From Microbacterium pumilum (GTDB taxonomy: Bacteria > Actinomycetota > Actinomycetes > Actinomycetales > Microbacteriaceae): a stretch of 64,000 bases of DNA. The translations under genes and the position numbers were made by a program. Location: assembly GCF_039530225.1 (NCBI RefSeq), contig NZ_BAAAOH010000001.1, forward strand, positions 4,387,675-4,451,674, given 5' to 3'. A model generated the notes under the pieces. It had not been told where the DNA came from, did no database searches, and saw nothing but the letters and a program-made list of their open reading frames with translations. Shown here piece by piece: positions 48,981-53,892 of the stretch (the first letter of the stretch is position 1; each line of letters starts with the position of its first letter).

Positions 48981-50276
48981 TCAGGCCGCCGCGGAGCGGA
49001 GCGCGTGCGCTCCATCCATCCGGTCCAGCTCGTGCTGCACGGCTGTCGCGAACGCCGCCCCGGGCACGCTTCCCGCGTCGTAGTGGATGCCGCAGCACAG
49101 CCGGTCGTCATACGACACCGCCGCAACGCCGAGGCGAACGTCAGCTGCGAGCACCGCGACGGGCCAGATCGCGGCCACCCGTGCGCCACCGAGCCGGAGG
49201 ACCCCCGCCGGACCCGGAACAGTCGTGACGAACCCTCCGACCAGGTGCTGACGCCTTGCGAGGCGATCCATGATCCGCGCTCCGACAGGGCCGCGCATGA
49301 ACTCGAGCGTGCCCTGCGACCGCGCGGTGACCTTCTCGGCGCGCGTCTGAACGGCGATGAGCCGGAGTCGCTCGTCCGGGTCGGACTCGCCGAGTGGCAG
49401 ACGAACCAGCATGATCCCGACGCGATTCGCCGCCGACCCCCGGCGCGGCAGCGCGACGGGGACCGACACCGGCAGAAGGACGGGGACTCCTTCGCCGGCG
49501 GCAGCGAGAGCGGCCGCGTAGCCGGATGCTGCAGCGGCGAGCACCGCGTCGTTCACCGTCGCACCCATCGTTCGCGCATGCGCTTGGAGTGCGTCGAGAT
49601 CAGCGCTGAGAAACGCGACGCCGTGGTTCGGGCCGCGGTCGCCGAGCAGCACGGTCGATCCGACCTCCCGGCCGCTCAGCGTCATCCGGATGCGGTGCAG
49701 ACTGGCGCCGAGCCTCGCGAGCGCATTTCTCCTGCGTGGTGCCACGCTGTCGTGCGTCAGGGGCGAAGGCGGAGTCGCGGCAGGCGCCGAGTCGTCGTCG
49801 CGATCGAAGAGCCGCTGCGCGATCTCGACCGCCGCCATCCCGTCAGCGATCGCGTGATGGATGCGCAGCACGATTCCCACCCCGTCCGCGCTGGCCCCCG
49901 GAACGATCAGGAGTTCCCAGAGCGGACGATCTCGGGGCAGAGGCATGCCCATCAGCTCCCCGCAGAGACGCATGAGTCCAGGCAGCCCGTCCACGGGGTC
50001 AGCGCTGCGGATGTGGTGCTGCAGGTCGGGCGACGCATCTGCCCATCGATGCCGCCAACCAGCGATCGCCGCGATGCGACGCAGCTGCGGCAACGAGGCG
50101 ATCCGCTCACCGACCGTTGCGCGCAGCGCATCCAGGTCAGGGATGCCGTCGACTCCGACGAACCCGCCCGGGGCGAGGAGACCGGCGATCAGGAATACGT
50201 TCACCTGCCCCGCGTGGTCGAGCACGAGATTCGCCTCGTCGACCGACGCGAGACGCTGCGTCGATCCGGCGGTCAT
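48981..50276 (-). CDS. Wax-ester synthase/DGAT-type acyltransferase
   Basis: 431 residues. Transfers acyl-CoA to alcohols or diacylglycerol (storage lipid). Seen: MTAGSTQRLASVDEANLVLD, a catalytic HHAIADGMA (HHxxxDG), GATVNDAVLAAAASGYAAAL, RVGIMLVRLPLGESDPDERL and VTTVPGPAGVLRLGGARV in the C-terminal half (the P-G-P-x-x family loop). The ATG at 50276 overlaps the stop of the upstream membrane gene (ATGA); a longer in-frame extension would be Arg/Pro-rich and unlikely. Confidence 0.9.
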   Translation of the reverse strand: MTAGSTQRLASVDEANLVLDHAGQVNVFLIAGLLAPGGFVGVDGIPDLDALRATVGERIASLPQLRRIAAIAGWRHRWADASPDLQHHIRSADPVDGLPGLMRLCGELMGMPLPRDRPLWELLIVPGASADGVGIVLRIHHAIADGMAAVEIAQRLFDRDDDSAPAATPPSPLTHDSVAPRRRNALARLGASLHRIRMTLSGREVGSTVLLGDRGPNHGVAFLSADLDALQAHARTMGATVNDAVLAAAASGYAAALAAAGEGVPVLLPVSVPVALPRRGSAANRVGIMLVRLPLGESDPDERLRLIAVQTRAEKVTARSQGTLEFMRGPVGARIMDRLARRQHLVGGFVTTVPGPAGVLRLGGARVAAIWPVAVLAADVRLGVAAVSYDDRLCCGIHYDAGSVPGAAFATAVQHELDRMDGAHALRSAAA

Positions 50277-51241
50277 GCGCCGGCTCGCTCGGTGGCCGGT
50301 GCGGCGCGCGCCGCATCCAGATGGCGGACGAAGATCCAGAGCGGGACCGCGCCGATGACGGCGAGTGCCAGGAACAGGGGCACCGCGCCCATCGAAGCGA
50401 ACGGCGTGCTCGGGTCGGCCATCGCGCCGAACCACTGATCAGTGGCGACGCCGATGCTCTCGAGCACGAGCGTGACGAGCATCGCACCGACGAGCAGCTG
50501 GCCGAGCGGCCGCCGCATCCACAACCAGATCGCCGACATCACGAGGAGCGGCAGCCACACCGCCAGATCTTGGACGAACACGGCGTTGGTCGTCGCTCCC
50601 GAACCTTGCAGGAAGGCACTCGGTGAGTCGCTGAACATGGCCGGAACGATCGTCCGAAGCCAGACCAGCGCATTGAGAGCGGCCAGCGCGAGCGCGTAGA
50701 TCGCAATGCCCCGTGCAGGCAGGCGCGCGTCGACTCGCGCGCTGAAGCCGGTCAGATCGATTTGCACCATCACCACCACGGCAGACCAGAATCCGAGTGA
50801 AAGCATGGCGACGTAGATCAGGAACAGGCCGTTGAACGGCGTGGCGAAGAGGAACAGCACGGACTGGTAGATGAGATACGCCACAGCTCCGAGCCATCCC
50901 ACGACGGCTCGCGCCGAATTCCTCGCCGCGAAGGACATCGACGTGATGAGCAGCGGCACGGCGATTGCCATGACCACCAGAGCCGTCCCGCGGAGATTGC
51001 CCTGAGCGACGGCCGGCCCGCCGAGCACCCCCGGGATGAAGAACGAGGCGGATGCCGCTGCCAGCGCCACCGCCGCCAGCGCGGCAGCGAGCCGGTACGC
51101 CGTCGCCGAGGGCTTCACGCTCGCGGTGAGGCTCTGCTCGGTGCGCTGCCGCCCGGTCGACCGTGGGACCGACCCGGGCGCCCCGTCGGTCCCACGGCGA
51201 GTCGATGCGGAAGCGTGCGATTGCGCAGCGTTGTTGTCCAT
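50273..51241 (-). CDS. Polytopic membrane protein coupled to the acyltransferase
   Basis: 322 residues from ATG 51241. After a Ser/Thr/Arg-rich cytoplasmic head (about 45 residues) there are about seven membrane helices, e.g. LAAALAAVALAAASASFFIP, LRGTALVVMAIAVPLLITSM and LGAVAYLIYQSVLFLFATPF. No family recognised. Overlap with the acyltransferase (ATGA) suggests a joint role in lipid traffic or synthesis. Head contains no signal peptide. Confidence 0.8.
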   Translation of the reverse strand: MDNNAAQSHASASTRRGTDGAPGSVPRSTGRQRTEQSLTASVKPSATAYRLAAALAAVALAAASASFFIPGVLGGPAVAQGNLRGTALVVMAIAVPLLITSMSFAARNSARAVVGWLGAVAYLIYQSVLFLFATPFNGLFLIYVAMLSLGFWSAVVVMVQIDLTGFSARVDARLPARGIAIYALALAALNALVWLRTIVPAMFSDSPSAFLQGSGATTNAVFVQDLAVWLPLLVMSAIWLWMRRPLGQLLVGAMLVTLVLESIGVATDQWFGAMADPSTPFASMGAVPLFLALAVIGAVPLWIFVRHLDAARAAPATERAGA

Positions 51242-51396
51242 GAGGACAACTCTCCGCGCCGGAGACGGCGCGGTCAGGGCCGAACGTCCCTCGTCGAGCA
51301 CGTCGCTTGGTGTCAAGGGCTCGTCCGCGCAAGGCCTCCCGAGTAATGTCGGCAACGGCCCAACCGCGCCGCATCCGCACTTCTGGAAGGTTGCTC

Positions 51397-51654
51397 ATGA
51401 GCATCAACGACGACGACATCACGACCACCTCGGGCACACCCGGTGAGGGACCCGCAGACGGCGGAGCCAACCCCGACGGTCACGACGGCGGAGCCGACGG
51501 ATCCGCAGATGCCGGGGAAGGACCCGCGGACGGCGGAGCCACCCCGAGCGGACACGACGGCGGAGCCGACGGATCCGCCGACGCCGGGGAAGGACCCGCG
51601 GACGGCGGGGCCAACGCGGGCGGACACGACGGCGGAGCCGACGGATCCGCTTGA
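51397..51654 (+). CDS. Asp/Gly/His tandem-repeat small protein (candidate modification substrate)
   Basis: 85 residues: a short leader (MSINDDDITTTSGTP), then three near-identical 24-residue units, e.g. GEGPADGGANPDGHDGGADG, each carrying one His and many Asp and Gly. Acidic and flexible; no signal peptide. GGAAGG precedes the ATG. Its stop overlaps the TTG of the JmjC gene. Leader plus core repeats plus coupled oxygenase recalls a RiPP precursor, and I infer it to be the oxygenase substrate. Similar Asp/Gly repeat proteins occur in Actinobacteria, from memory, without known function. Confidence 0.8.
   Translation: MSINDDDITTTSGTPGEGPADGGANPDGHDGGADGSADAGEGPADGGATPSGHDGGADGSADAGEGPADGGANAGGHDGGADGSA
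51442..51651 (+). repeat. Three tandem 72-bp coding repeats
   Basis: Units at 51442-51513, 51514-51585 and 51586-51651 (last lacks two codons). Nearly identical at the protein level; differences cluster at the N-P-D / T-P-S / N-A-G position. Both DNA and protein repeats allow unit number to change by recombination. Confidence 0.93.
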
Positions 51655-52877
51655 GCGAGCCCGACCTGCGCGGGCCGCGCGATCGGCCCGCGCTCGCGCG
51701 TCTCAGCGGCGTCCCCGCGACCGACTTCAGCCGCGAGTACTGGGGAGAGCGGCCGCTCCTCACCCACCGGGCGGACGGATTCGCCCATCTTTTCAGTGCG
51801 AATGCGGTCGATGAACTCGTCGCCGAACGCGGGCTCCGCACGCCCTTCGCCCGGATGGCTTCGGAGGGCGCGGTGCTCTCGCCGTCGCTGTTCACGGCGC
51901 CGGGCGGCTTCGGCGCCGAAGTGGGCGACCAGCTCGACTCCGCGAAGGTGCTGGAGCAGTTCGCAGGCGGCGCGACGCTGGTGCTGCAGGGACTCCACCG
52001 CACGTGGGAGCCGATCGCAGCGTTCACCCGTCAGCTCGTCGCCGATCTCGGCCACCCCGCCCAGGTGAACGCCTACATCACGCCGGCGTCCTCCCGCGGA
52101 TTCGACCCGCACTACGACACGCACGACGTGTTCGTCATCCAGATCGCGGGCGCGAAGCGCTGGACGATCCACGAGCCGGTGCACCGGCATCCGCTCGCCG
52201 ACCAGCCGTGGACCGACCACCGCGACGCCGTCGCCGAACGCGCGCGAACCGAGCCTTGGATCGACGCGGTCTTCAAGCCCGGCGACGTCCTCTATCTGCC
52301 GCGCGGATGGATCCACTCCGCGGTGGCGCAGGGCGGCACATCCATCCACCTGACGATCGGGGTGCGCGCGGCGACGCGACACGATCTGCTCACGCGCCTG
52401 CTCGCGCGCGCGGGCGATGACCCCGCCTTGAGGCAGCCGCTGCCGATGGGCGTGGACTACGCCGACGCCGCGTCGCTCGATGCCGACCTGGCCGCCACGA
52501 TCGACGCGGCGCAGGCCTTGCTGAGCGCTGCGGCGGACGACGGTGAGATCGCTGCCGCGATGCAGCGCGAGTTCCAGCAGGCGGTCCGACCGGCCCCGGT
52601 GCGCCCGCTCGCGACCGTCGACCTGCTGGCCGACCTCGACGCCGCTGCGACGCTCGGGTGGCGCGACTCGCTCCGCGGGCGCATCGAGGACGACGACCTC
52701 GGCGTGCGCATCGTGCTGCCGCACAAGACCATCGGGCTTCCGGCTGAGGCGTCGGGCGCAGTGCACGCCCTGCGCGAGCGCGACCAGCCCGCGGGCGCAC
52801 TGCCGGGGCTCGACCCGGGCTCGTCGCTCGTCGTCTCGAGACGGCTGCTGCGCGAAGGCGTGCTGGTGGCGAGATGA
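51651..52877 (+). CDS. JmjC/cupin-domain Fe(II)/2-oxoglutarate oxygenase
   Basis: 408 residues. Seen: TDFSREYWGERPLLTHRADG (ROX/cupin_4 N-terminus), the iron site FDPHYDTHDVFVIQIAGAKR (His154, Asp156) with LYLPRGWIHSAVAQGGTSIH (His222), and 2-oxoglutarate-binding K/R in GAKRWTIHEP. A helical C-terminal domain follows as in YcfD-type ribosomal oxygenases, which hydroxylate protein Arg or His residues. TTG start overlapping the stop of the repeat gene (TTGA); there is no other start before the conserved region, so coupling is firm. Likely hydroxylates the repeat protein (inference). Confidence 0.9.
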   Translation: MSEPDLRGPRDRPALARLSGVPATDFSREYWGERPLLTHRADGFAHLFSANAVDELVAERGLRTPFARMASEGAVLSPSLFTAPGGFGAEVGDQLDSAKVLEQFAGGATLVLQGLHRTWEPIAAFTRQLVADLGHPAQVNAYITPASSRGFDPHYDTHDVFVIQIAGAKRWTIHEPVHRHPLADQPWTDHRDAVAERARTEPWIDAVFKPGDVLYLPRGWIHSAVAQGGTSIHLTIGVRAATRHDLLTRLLARAGDDPALRQPLPMGVDYADAASLDADLAATIDAAQALLSAAADDGEIAAAMQREFQQAVRPAPVRPLATVDLLADLDAAATLGWRDSLRGRIEDDDLGVRIVLPHKTIGLPAEASGAVHALRERDQPAGALPGLDPGSSLVVSRRLLREGVLVAR

Positions 52878-52887
52878 GCGTTCGCCG

Positions 52888-53820
52888 ATGAGCGCGACGG
52901 CCCTCCCCTCGACGTCGCAATCGATGGGAGCGTGGGAGCCGTGCAGCGACCGCTCGCTCGAACGCGGCGATCCGCTCGCGGGCACCGGCGGGTTCGGCGC
53001 TCGGTGGCTGCTCGTCGAGATCGACGGCGCGTGGGGCACGCACGCCTTCTTCCAGTCGCGCCTCGACCCGGCGATCGGGCGCGAACTGGTCGGACGAGCC
53101 GAGAGCGCAGGCATCCGTCCCGTTGCGATCCGCCCGTTCGGACGCCGCGCGGACGAACGCCGTGCTCAGCGGCGGTGGCGCTGGGCACTCGCCGACGCGC
53201 GCCCGGGTCGCGAGTCGGTGCGATGGGGCGTCGTCGACGATCCTGCTGAGCTGCTCGACGTGTCGCTCGACGGCACAGCGGGCACCGCGTCGGACCGACC
53301 CGTGGTGCTGGTGTGCACTCATGCCCGGCACGATCAGTGCTGCGCCGTCCGCGGACGACCGGTGGCGCAGACGCTCTCGCGCGCGTTCCCAGACGACACC
53401 TGGGAGAGCTCGCACCTCGGCGGCGACCGCTTCGCCGCGACGATGATCGTCCTGCCGCACGGTCTCTACTACGGCCGGGTGCCGACCGCAGAGGCGGGAG
53501 CCATCGTGGAGCGCTATCGGCAGGGCGAGATCGTCGAGCAGTACTATCGCGGACGCAGTTCGCTCAGCAACATCGTGCAGTCCGCGCAGTCCTTCGCACG
53601 CGCGGACAGCGGCGATGCCCGCATCGAGGCGTTCCCGCCGGTACTCGAGGAACGCACCGCGGAGGGCGGCTGGCGGGTCGACCTCGCGCACGACGGCGAG
53701 GTCGTCACGGTGCTGCTGCACGAGCGGATGTCTGCCCCGTTGCTGAGCACGTGTGCGGCGACCCGGCCCACATCCGTTCGCGAGTTCGCGTTGACGTCGA
53801 TGTCGCGGCGCCCCGTATGA
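52888..53820 (+). CDS. Sucrase/ferredoxin-like [2Fe-2S] thioredoxin-fold protein
   Basis: 310 residues. Related to Apd1/Aim32-type thioredoxin-like ferredoxins, which bind a [2Fe-2S] cluster with Cys and His. Seen: GARWLLVEIDGAWGTHAFFQ, VVLVCTHARHDQCCAVRGRP (Cys143, Cys151, Cys152) and WESSHLGGDRFAATMIVLPH (His176; the eukaryotic H-x-G-G-H has Asp here). Ten bases after the oxygenase stop and followed by a terminator, so it is the last gene of this operon. It may supply electrons to keep the oxygenase iron reduced (inference). Confidence 0.87.
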   Translation: MSATALPSTSQSMGAWEPCSDRSLERGDPLAGTGGFGARWLLVEIDGAWGTHAFFQSRLDPAIGRELVGRAESAGIRPVAIRPFGRRADERRAQRRWRWALADARPGRESVRWGVVDDPAELLDVSLDGTAGTASDRPVVLVCTHARHDQCCAVRGRPVAQTLSRAFPDDTWESSHLGGDRFAATMIVLPHGLYYGRVPTAEAGAIVERYRQGEIVEQYYRGRSSLSNIVQSAQSFARADSGDARIEAFPPVLEERTAEGGWRVDLAHDGEVVTVLLHERMSAPLLSTCAATRPTSVREFALTSMSRRPV

Positions 53821-53842
53821 CCCCGTCCCGCAGGAACGTCGA

Positions 53843-53881
53843 AGCCCTCCCGAGGGCGCTTTCGCGCACCGCGGGAGGGCT
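53843..53881. terminator. Terminator between oxygenase operon and ABC permease
   Basis: AGCCCTCCCG and CGGGAGGGCT form a 10-bp perfect stem with a 19-base loop. Lies between convergent genes and probably serves both. Confidence 0.75.
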
Positions 53882-53892
53882 CGGGATTCGGC

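Follow-up and report, generated by a model that had tools for sequence, protein, structure and literature searches.

Here we describe a three-gene operon in a 64,000-nucleotide stretch of Microbacterium pumilum DNA (assembly GCF_039530225.1, contig NZ_BAAAOH010000001.1, positions 4,387,675 to 4,451,674 of the forward strand), referred to as the window throughout. A repeat peptide, a JmjC_2 oxygenase and a Suc_Fer-like [2Fe-2S] protein are encoded in series on the plus strand and form one operon. This operon is probably a peptide-modification system comparable to the precursor-enzyme pair of a ribosomally synthesized and post-translationally modified peptide (RiPP): the oxygenase would hydroxylate aspartate in the repeat peptide, the leader of the peptide would dock on the enzyme, and the Suc_Fer-like protein would serve as an optional redox helper.

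Linkage of the Repeat Peptide and the Oxygenase

A scan of named contigs with the oxygenase alignment returned at least 581 relatives, of which the best 80 were kept as a sample of the near clade. These loci were assigned to Microbacteriaceae (38), Mycobacteriaceae (12), Nocardiaceae (11), Cellulomonadaceae (6), Dietziaceae (4), Gordoniaceae (4) and others, two assignments to 'Gloeocapsa' being taken as a name homonym. Just upstream of the oxygenase and on the same strand, an open reading frame (ORF) with at least four DGG-type tetrapeptides, a motif selected after the repeats had been seen, is present at 79 of the 80 loci; the eightieth (L043) has a masked stretch inside the repeat, with two such tetrapeptides visible. 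Among 1,546 control windows from the same loci, none reached four DGG-type tetrapeptides and five reached two. In the reverse direction, the peptide was detected at E <= 1e-6 in 18 of the 296 genomes of the class, and in all 18 the oxygenase adjoins it, the peptide lying at most about 210 bases upstream on the same strand (coordinates compared by eye). Because the linkage holds in both directions, the view that the repeat peptide is a dedicated partner of this oxygenase clade is strongly supported, and the peptide is probably the substrate of the enzyme. The first-pass annotation had proposed that the oxygenase modifies Asp, Asn, His or Pro in each repeat, and had let this depend on the repeat gene standing beside most orthologs of the enzyme; the co-occurrence held and the partnership stood, and the list of candidate residues is now narrowed towards Asp.

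The Repeat Peptide

The precursor ORF (51397..51654, ATG start, 85 aa; all operon features are on the plus strand) is backed by ORF reading, relatives and the ratio of nonsynonymous to synonymous substitution rates (dN/dS). The peptide starts with MSINDDDITT, which belongs to an acidic N-terminal leader (51397..51439) whose motif INDDDITT has comparable counterparts in other precursors, and continues with three units of the form GEGPADGGAN-PxGHDGGADGSA. These units are encoded by three 72-bp repeats at 51440..51511, 51512..51583 and 51584..51655, the last running into the stop; at the DNA level, identity to copy 1 is 86% for copy 2 and 83% for copy 3. Three repeats were counted in 64 of the 71 precursors examined. 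The dN/dS ratio was below 1 in all 57 pairs compared (median 0.089; pairs of equal length with 3-20% DNA difference and at least 75% protein identity, members being shared among pairs), and the repeat peptide therefore evolves as a protein under purifying selection. A chance repeat in GC-rich DNA is ruled out by the control windows and by dN/dS.

No Pfam or NCBIfam family was matched by the window peptide, and seven further precursors yielded only one meaningless NCBIfam match (8 bits, cut-off 150). When the peptide was used as a protein query, 170 relatives were obtained, and the 120 listed include entries from Leifsonia poae, Mycobacterium, Salinispora, Actinoplanes and Phytohabitans; the database labels are 'hypothetical' or, in Leifsonia poae, 'BatC protein'. 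Across the loci, 155 distinct precursors were compiled, a set that includes some wrong starts, most or all of eight EVEVED-type peptides and the acidic ORF of L020/L129 (both described below), and from which the precursor picker omitted 15 loci, several of which (L005, L026, L029, L041, L043, L156) hold a precursor by eye. By pattern, a D-rich leader (INDDDITT and relatives) was recognized in 116 of the 155, and this common leader precedes differing cores of the DGG and DxDG types.

The Oxygenase

The second gene (51651..52877, TTG start) encodes a 408-aa 2-oxoglutarate- and Fe(II)-dependent oxygenase of the JmjC_2 type, resembling the ribosomal oxygenases (ROX), as judged from Pfam, fold and metal triad. 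It matches JmjC_2 (PF08007) with 106.8 bits against a cut-off of 22. The HxD...H triad that marks ROX and JmjC_2 enzymes lies in this domain as His154-x-Asp156 (52110..52118) and His222 (52314..52316), invariant in alignments A1 and A3 and thus in all 52 rows of A3, the window included. The modelled protein has the JmjC, dimerization and winged-helix architecture of ROX enzymes, and its best structural matches are NO66 and MINA53, with a fold match over the full length. The C-terminal part was modelled with high confidence, within the larger protein, as four strands, two helices and a strand. R398, L399 and R401 of this domain are invariant in the near clade, and the leader, where present, would probably bind the C-terminal winged-helix domain of the oxygenase.

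NO66/RIOX1, MINA53/RIOX2 and YcfD are thus alike to the window enzyme in full-length modelled fold, in the triad and in the expected hydroxylation of protein side chains. According to passages of PMC6006756, the known ROX members act on the ribosomal proteins uL2, uL15 and uL16; here, by contrast, the gene goes together with a repeat peptide rich in Asp, and the genomic context points to this peptide rather than a ribosomal protein as the substrate. With Fe(II), 2-oxoglutarate and O2, the oxygenase would add a beta-hydroxyl group to Asp in the DGG/ADG part of each repeat.

The Suc_Fer-Like Protein

The third gene (52888..53820) encodes a 310-aa protein that matches Suc_Fer-like (PF06999) with 77.2 bits (cut-off 34.9), and part of which has the fold of a thioredoxin-like [2Fe-2S] ferredoxin (1m2d, E 3.2e-4, TM 0.71 on target). 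We take the yeast proteins Apd1 and Aim32 to be members of PF06999; the window protein shares with them the Pfam match, the thioredoxin-like ferredoxin fold and the CX8C motif. In passages of PMC8482512, the yeast Aim32 motif is given as CX8C-Xn-HX3H, with Cys and His coordinating the cluster. Compared with it, the window protein has the predicted cluster ligands Cys143-X8-Cys152 (53314..53343) and, in place of His-X3-His, His176-X3-Asp180 (53413..53427); C143, C152, H176 and D180 are invariant in all 45 rows of alignment A4, the window included. Yeast Apd1 and Aim32 have HX3H at the second ligand pair, whereas the operon proteins have HX3D, or rarely HX3C.

Counting as linked any Suc_Fer protein in the same fetched locus as an oxygenase, on either strand, the fourth predicted ligand is D in 135 and C in three of 138 distinct linked proteins within the class, and D in 11 and C in one of 12 linked proteins outside it, so that H occurs in none of the 150. 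Among 55 distinct unlinked proteins, taken from places that we chose from a longer match list, H occurs in 46 and D in nine. As only D, C or H occurs there, position 180 is predicted to be a cluster ligand, giving a Cys2-His-Asp set, and the Suc_Fer proteins appear mostly to form a distinct subfamily tied to the operon. Four of the nine unlinked D proteins (G475, G490, G503, G514) come from genomes with a peptide-oxygenase pair and no adjacent Suc_Fer gene, and two more D-type copies lie away from the pair in rhodococci (L250, L252), as if the partner were encoded elsewhere in the genome.

The Suc_Fer gene is found downstream on the same strand at 72 of the 80 named loci. In 16 genomes with the oxygenase and no adjacent copy, some of them drafts, no Suc_Fer match at E <= 0.001 was found genome-wide in eight. 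The gene is thus optional, and its protein would be a specialized helper that keeps the iron reduced or acts on the product. That the third protein supplies electrons, as first annotated, is a guess that these eight genomes deprive of any obligatory character.

HX3D Suc_Fer proteins also occur in three genomes (G450, G482, G509; loci L218, L227, L235) that had no oxygenase match in the class search, where they may have another partner. At L243, L244 and L246, divergent JmjC genes have a D-type Suc_Fer gene adjoining on the opposite strand.

Core Types and Distribution

In the search of the order, the oxygenase was found in 36 of 149 genomes. Among 30 loci of this search, 22 carry the DGG type, including one truncated at a contig end; L025, L026, L028, L029 and L030 pair this leader with a different core, present twice (such as GGDADSGDSDATQVDPAGSDPAG), the upstream sequence of L027 is absent, and L020 and L023 have neither the DGG type nor the two-copy core. 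In the search of the class, a near or distant oxygenase relative was present at E <= 1e-20 in 95 of 296 genomes, from which L111-L179 (69 loci, the window's own included) were inspected, together with L019, which has the peptide, and L023, which lacks it.

The loci were divided at 340 bits, a line set after the scores were seen. The DGG repeat type is present at 45 of the 52 loci above it, and six others (L156, L157, L158, L175, L177, L179) have a peptide that is also rich in Asp but differs in type (DGTDGD, DADTTD, DSDGTD); at L129, the same gene as L020, the upstream acidic ORF is unrelated to the repeat peptide. A Suc_Fer gene stands beside the oxygenase at 42 of these 52 loci. Below the line, eight of 17 loci have a short peptide ending like DITAGGDSDGTDSSSDFI, L140 has TDADADS repeats with Suc_Fer, L159 has a peptide with HSDSDGSDG, and L145 and L155 have short peptides ending in SDGND/SDMND. 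Outside the class, 15 loci, mostly the best scoring, were inspected from 30 genomes with a match: 13 show a repeat ORF that contains Asp and carries a leader like LTDEDIRT, L261 (distant) has no repeat ORF, and the upstream sequence of L269 is absent; Suc_Fer is found at 12 of the 15. The operon family therefore spans actinobacterial classes, with the same plan and other Asp-rich cores.

On a tree of 103 oxygenases, labels combining core type and Suc_Fer change 13 times, as against 41.9 when shuffled; this tree and that of the Suc_Fer proteins were built by quick searches, and both have long branches and forks left open. Because the labels are so strongly clustered, oxygenase and peptide core appear to have evolved together. 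An ordinary ribosomal oxygenase, next to a repeat peptide that is regulatory or has nothing to do with it, would agree with the full-length fold match to ROX enzymes, but the near-complete linkage over many families and in other classes, the lack of any other widely shared neighbour among the top 22 ORF clusters and the clustering of core type on the enzyme tree make this very improbable.

Two peptides outside the main types were also seen. Distant JmjC_2 genes without an adjacent Suc_Fer gene (L142, L146-L151, L153) follow a peptide of about 35-40 aa, MDPxEVEVEDLxEVTSRDxTAGGDSDGTDSSSDFI or close to it, which resembles a single-core precursor; these EVEVED-type peptides are a candidate second peptide family. 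On a Streptomyces clavuligerus plasmid (L273:3805-5200), a 48-aa peptide (IADNDPSDPP / IADPDPFDPVI) lies directly 5' of a JmjC-related cupin gene, and genes for an S9 peptidase and an ABC transporter are less than 4 kb from the pair; the peptide is possibly another precursor type.

Target Residue and Alternative Explanations

Residues were counted in the 155 distinct precursors with the first nine letters of each ignored. Asp is present in all 155, Pro in 140, His in 134 and Asn in 105, and only Asp and Gly are common to all; 21 precursors lack His, 17 lack both His and Asn, and 10 lack His, Asn and Pro, all of them standing before an oxygenase. The precursor at L171 consists of almost pure DGGA runs. 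Asp is favoured because it occurs in every precursor while 17 lack His and Asn, and our best guess is that the repeat peptide is beta-hydroxylated at Asp.

Several observations weigh against the favoured explanation as a whole. In the subfamily of the window, N and H each occur in 201 of 204 units, His being nearly as constant as the DGG Asp, and the nearest solved relatives of the oxygenase, the best structural matches NO66 and MINA53, are histidyl hydroxylases. Both facts would suit the same enzyme-peptide pair if hydroxylation within NPxGHDGG fell on His, or else on Asn or Pro; the precursors devoid of these residues, that of L171 above all, nevertheless render this unlikely. The leader pattern misses 39 of the 155 precursors, part of them truly without a leader and part with a wrongly chosen start. 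No peptide was seen upstream of the distant JmjC genes of L141, L143, L144, L152 and L154, all below 340 bits, and the repeat peptide is missing from two related genomes that do have the oxygenase (L020/L129 and L023). As to the third protein, D-type copies exist among the unlinked Suc_Fer proteins, pair-bearing genomes L251, L253, L254 and L257 have only H-type Suc_Fer elsewhere, and the ligand label changes four times on the Suc_Fer tree, which amounts to few independent switches. Finally, no protease, transporter or regulator is widely shared near the 80 named loci, as judged from ORF clustering (top 22 clusters).

In the genus of L020, L023 and L129 (g28), the oxygenase is kept with an unrelated acidic ORF upstream and Suc_Fer is not adjacent, so a change of oxygenase substrate is possible there.

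The chemistry might also go beyond hydroxylation, the oxygenase and the iron-sulfur protein together oxidizing, cross-linking, shortening or cleaving the peptide at Asp-Gly, for example from beta-hydroxyaspartate to aminomalonate. The route from Asp through beta-hydroxy-Asp to aminomalonate is known, in published passages, from a graspetide gene cluster; an alpha-ketoglutarate (alpha-KG) enzyme forming a Cys-Tyr cross-link in a RiPP has been reported, such a cross-link being attributed to Xia et al. 2025 (JACS) by a passage of a citing paper; and the third protein falls mostly in a distinct subfamily tied to the operon. Against this, Suc_Fer is missing from some genomes, its fold match is an electron-transfer ferredoxin, and Cys and Tyr are nearly absent from the precursors (present in four and one of 155, respectively), so we consider further chemistry rather unlikely.

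If Asp hydroxylation is right, the fate of the product may still differ from that of a classical secreted RiPP. As no protease or transporter is widely shared nearby, the modified peptide may remain intracellular. Retention of the hydroxylated peptide in the cell, where such an acidic and disordered protein would bind metal or sense oxygen and iron, is compatible with the favoured chemistry, and the N-terminus without a hydrophobic signal-like stretch (read from the sequence) and the acidic, Gly-rich composition agree with it; yet RiPP precursors typically keep one leader while their cores vary, as is seen here, and housekeeping proteases could do the trimming, which leaves cell retention a serious possibility with chances somewhat short of even. 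More speculatively, these would be phylum-wide ribosomal beta-hydroxyaspartate peptides serving as a genetically encoded metallophore or iron/oxygen buffer. Three repeats would then supply three bidentate beta-hydroxy-Asp ligands round a single hard metal ion, ferric iron or the like, while the oxygenase would draw on Fe(II), O2 and 2-oxoglutarate, and the Cys2-His-Asp [2Fe-2S] partner would reduce and release the metal. The presence of more than one Asp per repeat does not help this idea, nor does the match of an IdeR-like iron box to the regions upstream of 70 peptides, which was no better than to shuffled sequence and for which an iron-regulated promoter was set aside; we hold the metallophore role to be quite unlikely.

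Operon Organization in the Window

A Shine-Dalgarno-like site, GGAAGG (51385..51390, from sequence reading), precedes the peptide, and a loose word of this kind was found 5' of the peptide start at 66 of the 70 named loci checked. The TGA stop of the peptide and the TTG start of the oxygenase, the earliest start codon available in its frame, share four bases, and the two proteins are probably co-translated. The Suc_Fer-like gene begins 10 bases 3' of the oxygenase stop. The small protein with a leader and three 72-bp repeats, the TTG start overlapping its stop, the intact His154-Asp156-His222 and the [2Fe-2S] protein 10 bases further on had all been described in the first-pass annotation and were borne out. 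The terminator that it placed after the third gene fared less well: a strong hairpin (53839..53884, -36.3 kcal/mol, z -4.6) is indeed present, but it has no T run, and the T-run terminator scan did not pick it up.

Around the 80 named loci, the widely shared ORF clusters (among the top 22) are those of the peptide/oxygenase and Suc_Fer frames, plus antisense frames, and further operon members were set aside on this ground. Divergent from the operon in the window is a minus-strand ORF (50273-51241), hydrophobic by eye, with no Pfam or NCBIfam match.

Comparison with Known Peptide Systems

PbsQ and BpmG, the JmjC/cupin hydroxylases that act on ornithine in biphenomycin-type RiPPs according to passages of PMC12257519, are alike in that a JmjC-type enzyme acts on a ribosomal peptide. 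They differ in working after a multinuclear non-heme iron-dependent oxidative enzyme (MNIO) and an arginase, whereas here the oxygenase would be the main or only modifier and the precursor lacks that motif. Beta-hydroxylation of Asp in RiPPs has been ascribed to the MNIO enzymes PesHI and PflD, to alpha-KG-HExxH enzymes and to canonical alpha-KG enzymes (passages of PMC13060819, PMC13097080, PMC12636437); the predicted product, beta-hydroxy-Asp, is the same, the enzyme families and precursors are others, and no JmjC_2 enzyme is named for Asp in the passages concerned. In a survey of RiPP recognition elements (RRE), JmjC proteins (PF08007) fused to an RRE in fish and algae are said to have their nearest bacterial homologues in RiPP-like contexts (PMC12710340), and the relevant passages describe no precursor family, repeats or Suc_Fer partner. 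Searches of open-access literature, outside which most subscription papers fall, gave no description of the precursor family or of the peptide-JmjC-Suc_Fer operon among the titles and abstract openings listed; the repeat motifs led to one unrelated paper. The operon is therefore presented as a candidate new RiPP-like class.

Origin and Significance

None of the seven other genomes of the window's genus in the class search has the oxygenase at E <= 1e-20, and within the order the top-ranking relative (73%, L002) belongs to a different family, a pattern suggestive of horizontal transfer. A phage or plasmid origin was set aside, as there was no phage match and plasmid matches were partial and divergent: none of the 17 matching plasmid records, 16 of them from Streptomyces, covers more than 80% of the query, and all are below 60% identity.

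The named loci that bear the peptide include mycobacteria, rhodococci, Microbacteriaceae and Cellulomonas. The operon is of interest as a common, conserved and directly testable system. If the proposed modification is true, a JmjC protein hydroxylase would be the class-defining enzyme of a common peptide system, orphan bacterial ROX-like enzymes would gain a likely natural substrate, and the Suc_Fer-like partners would provide a set of iron-sulfur proteins that vary naturally at one predicted ligand between His, Asp and Cys.

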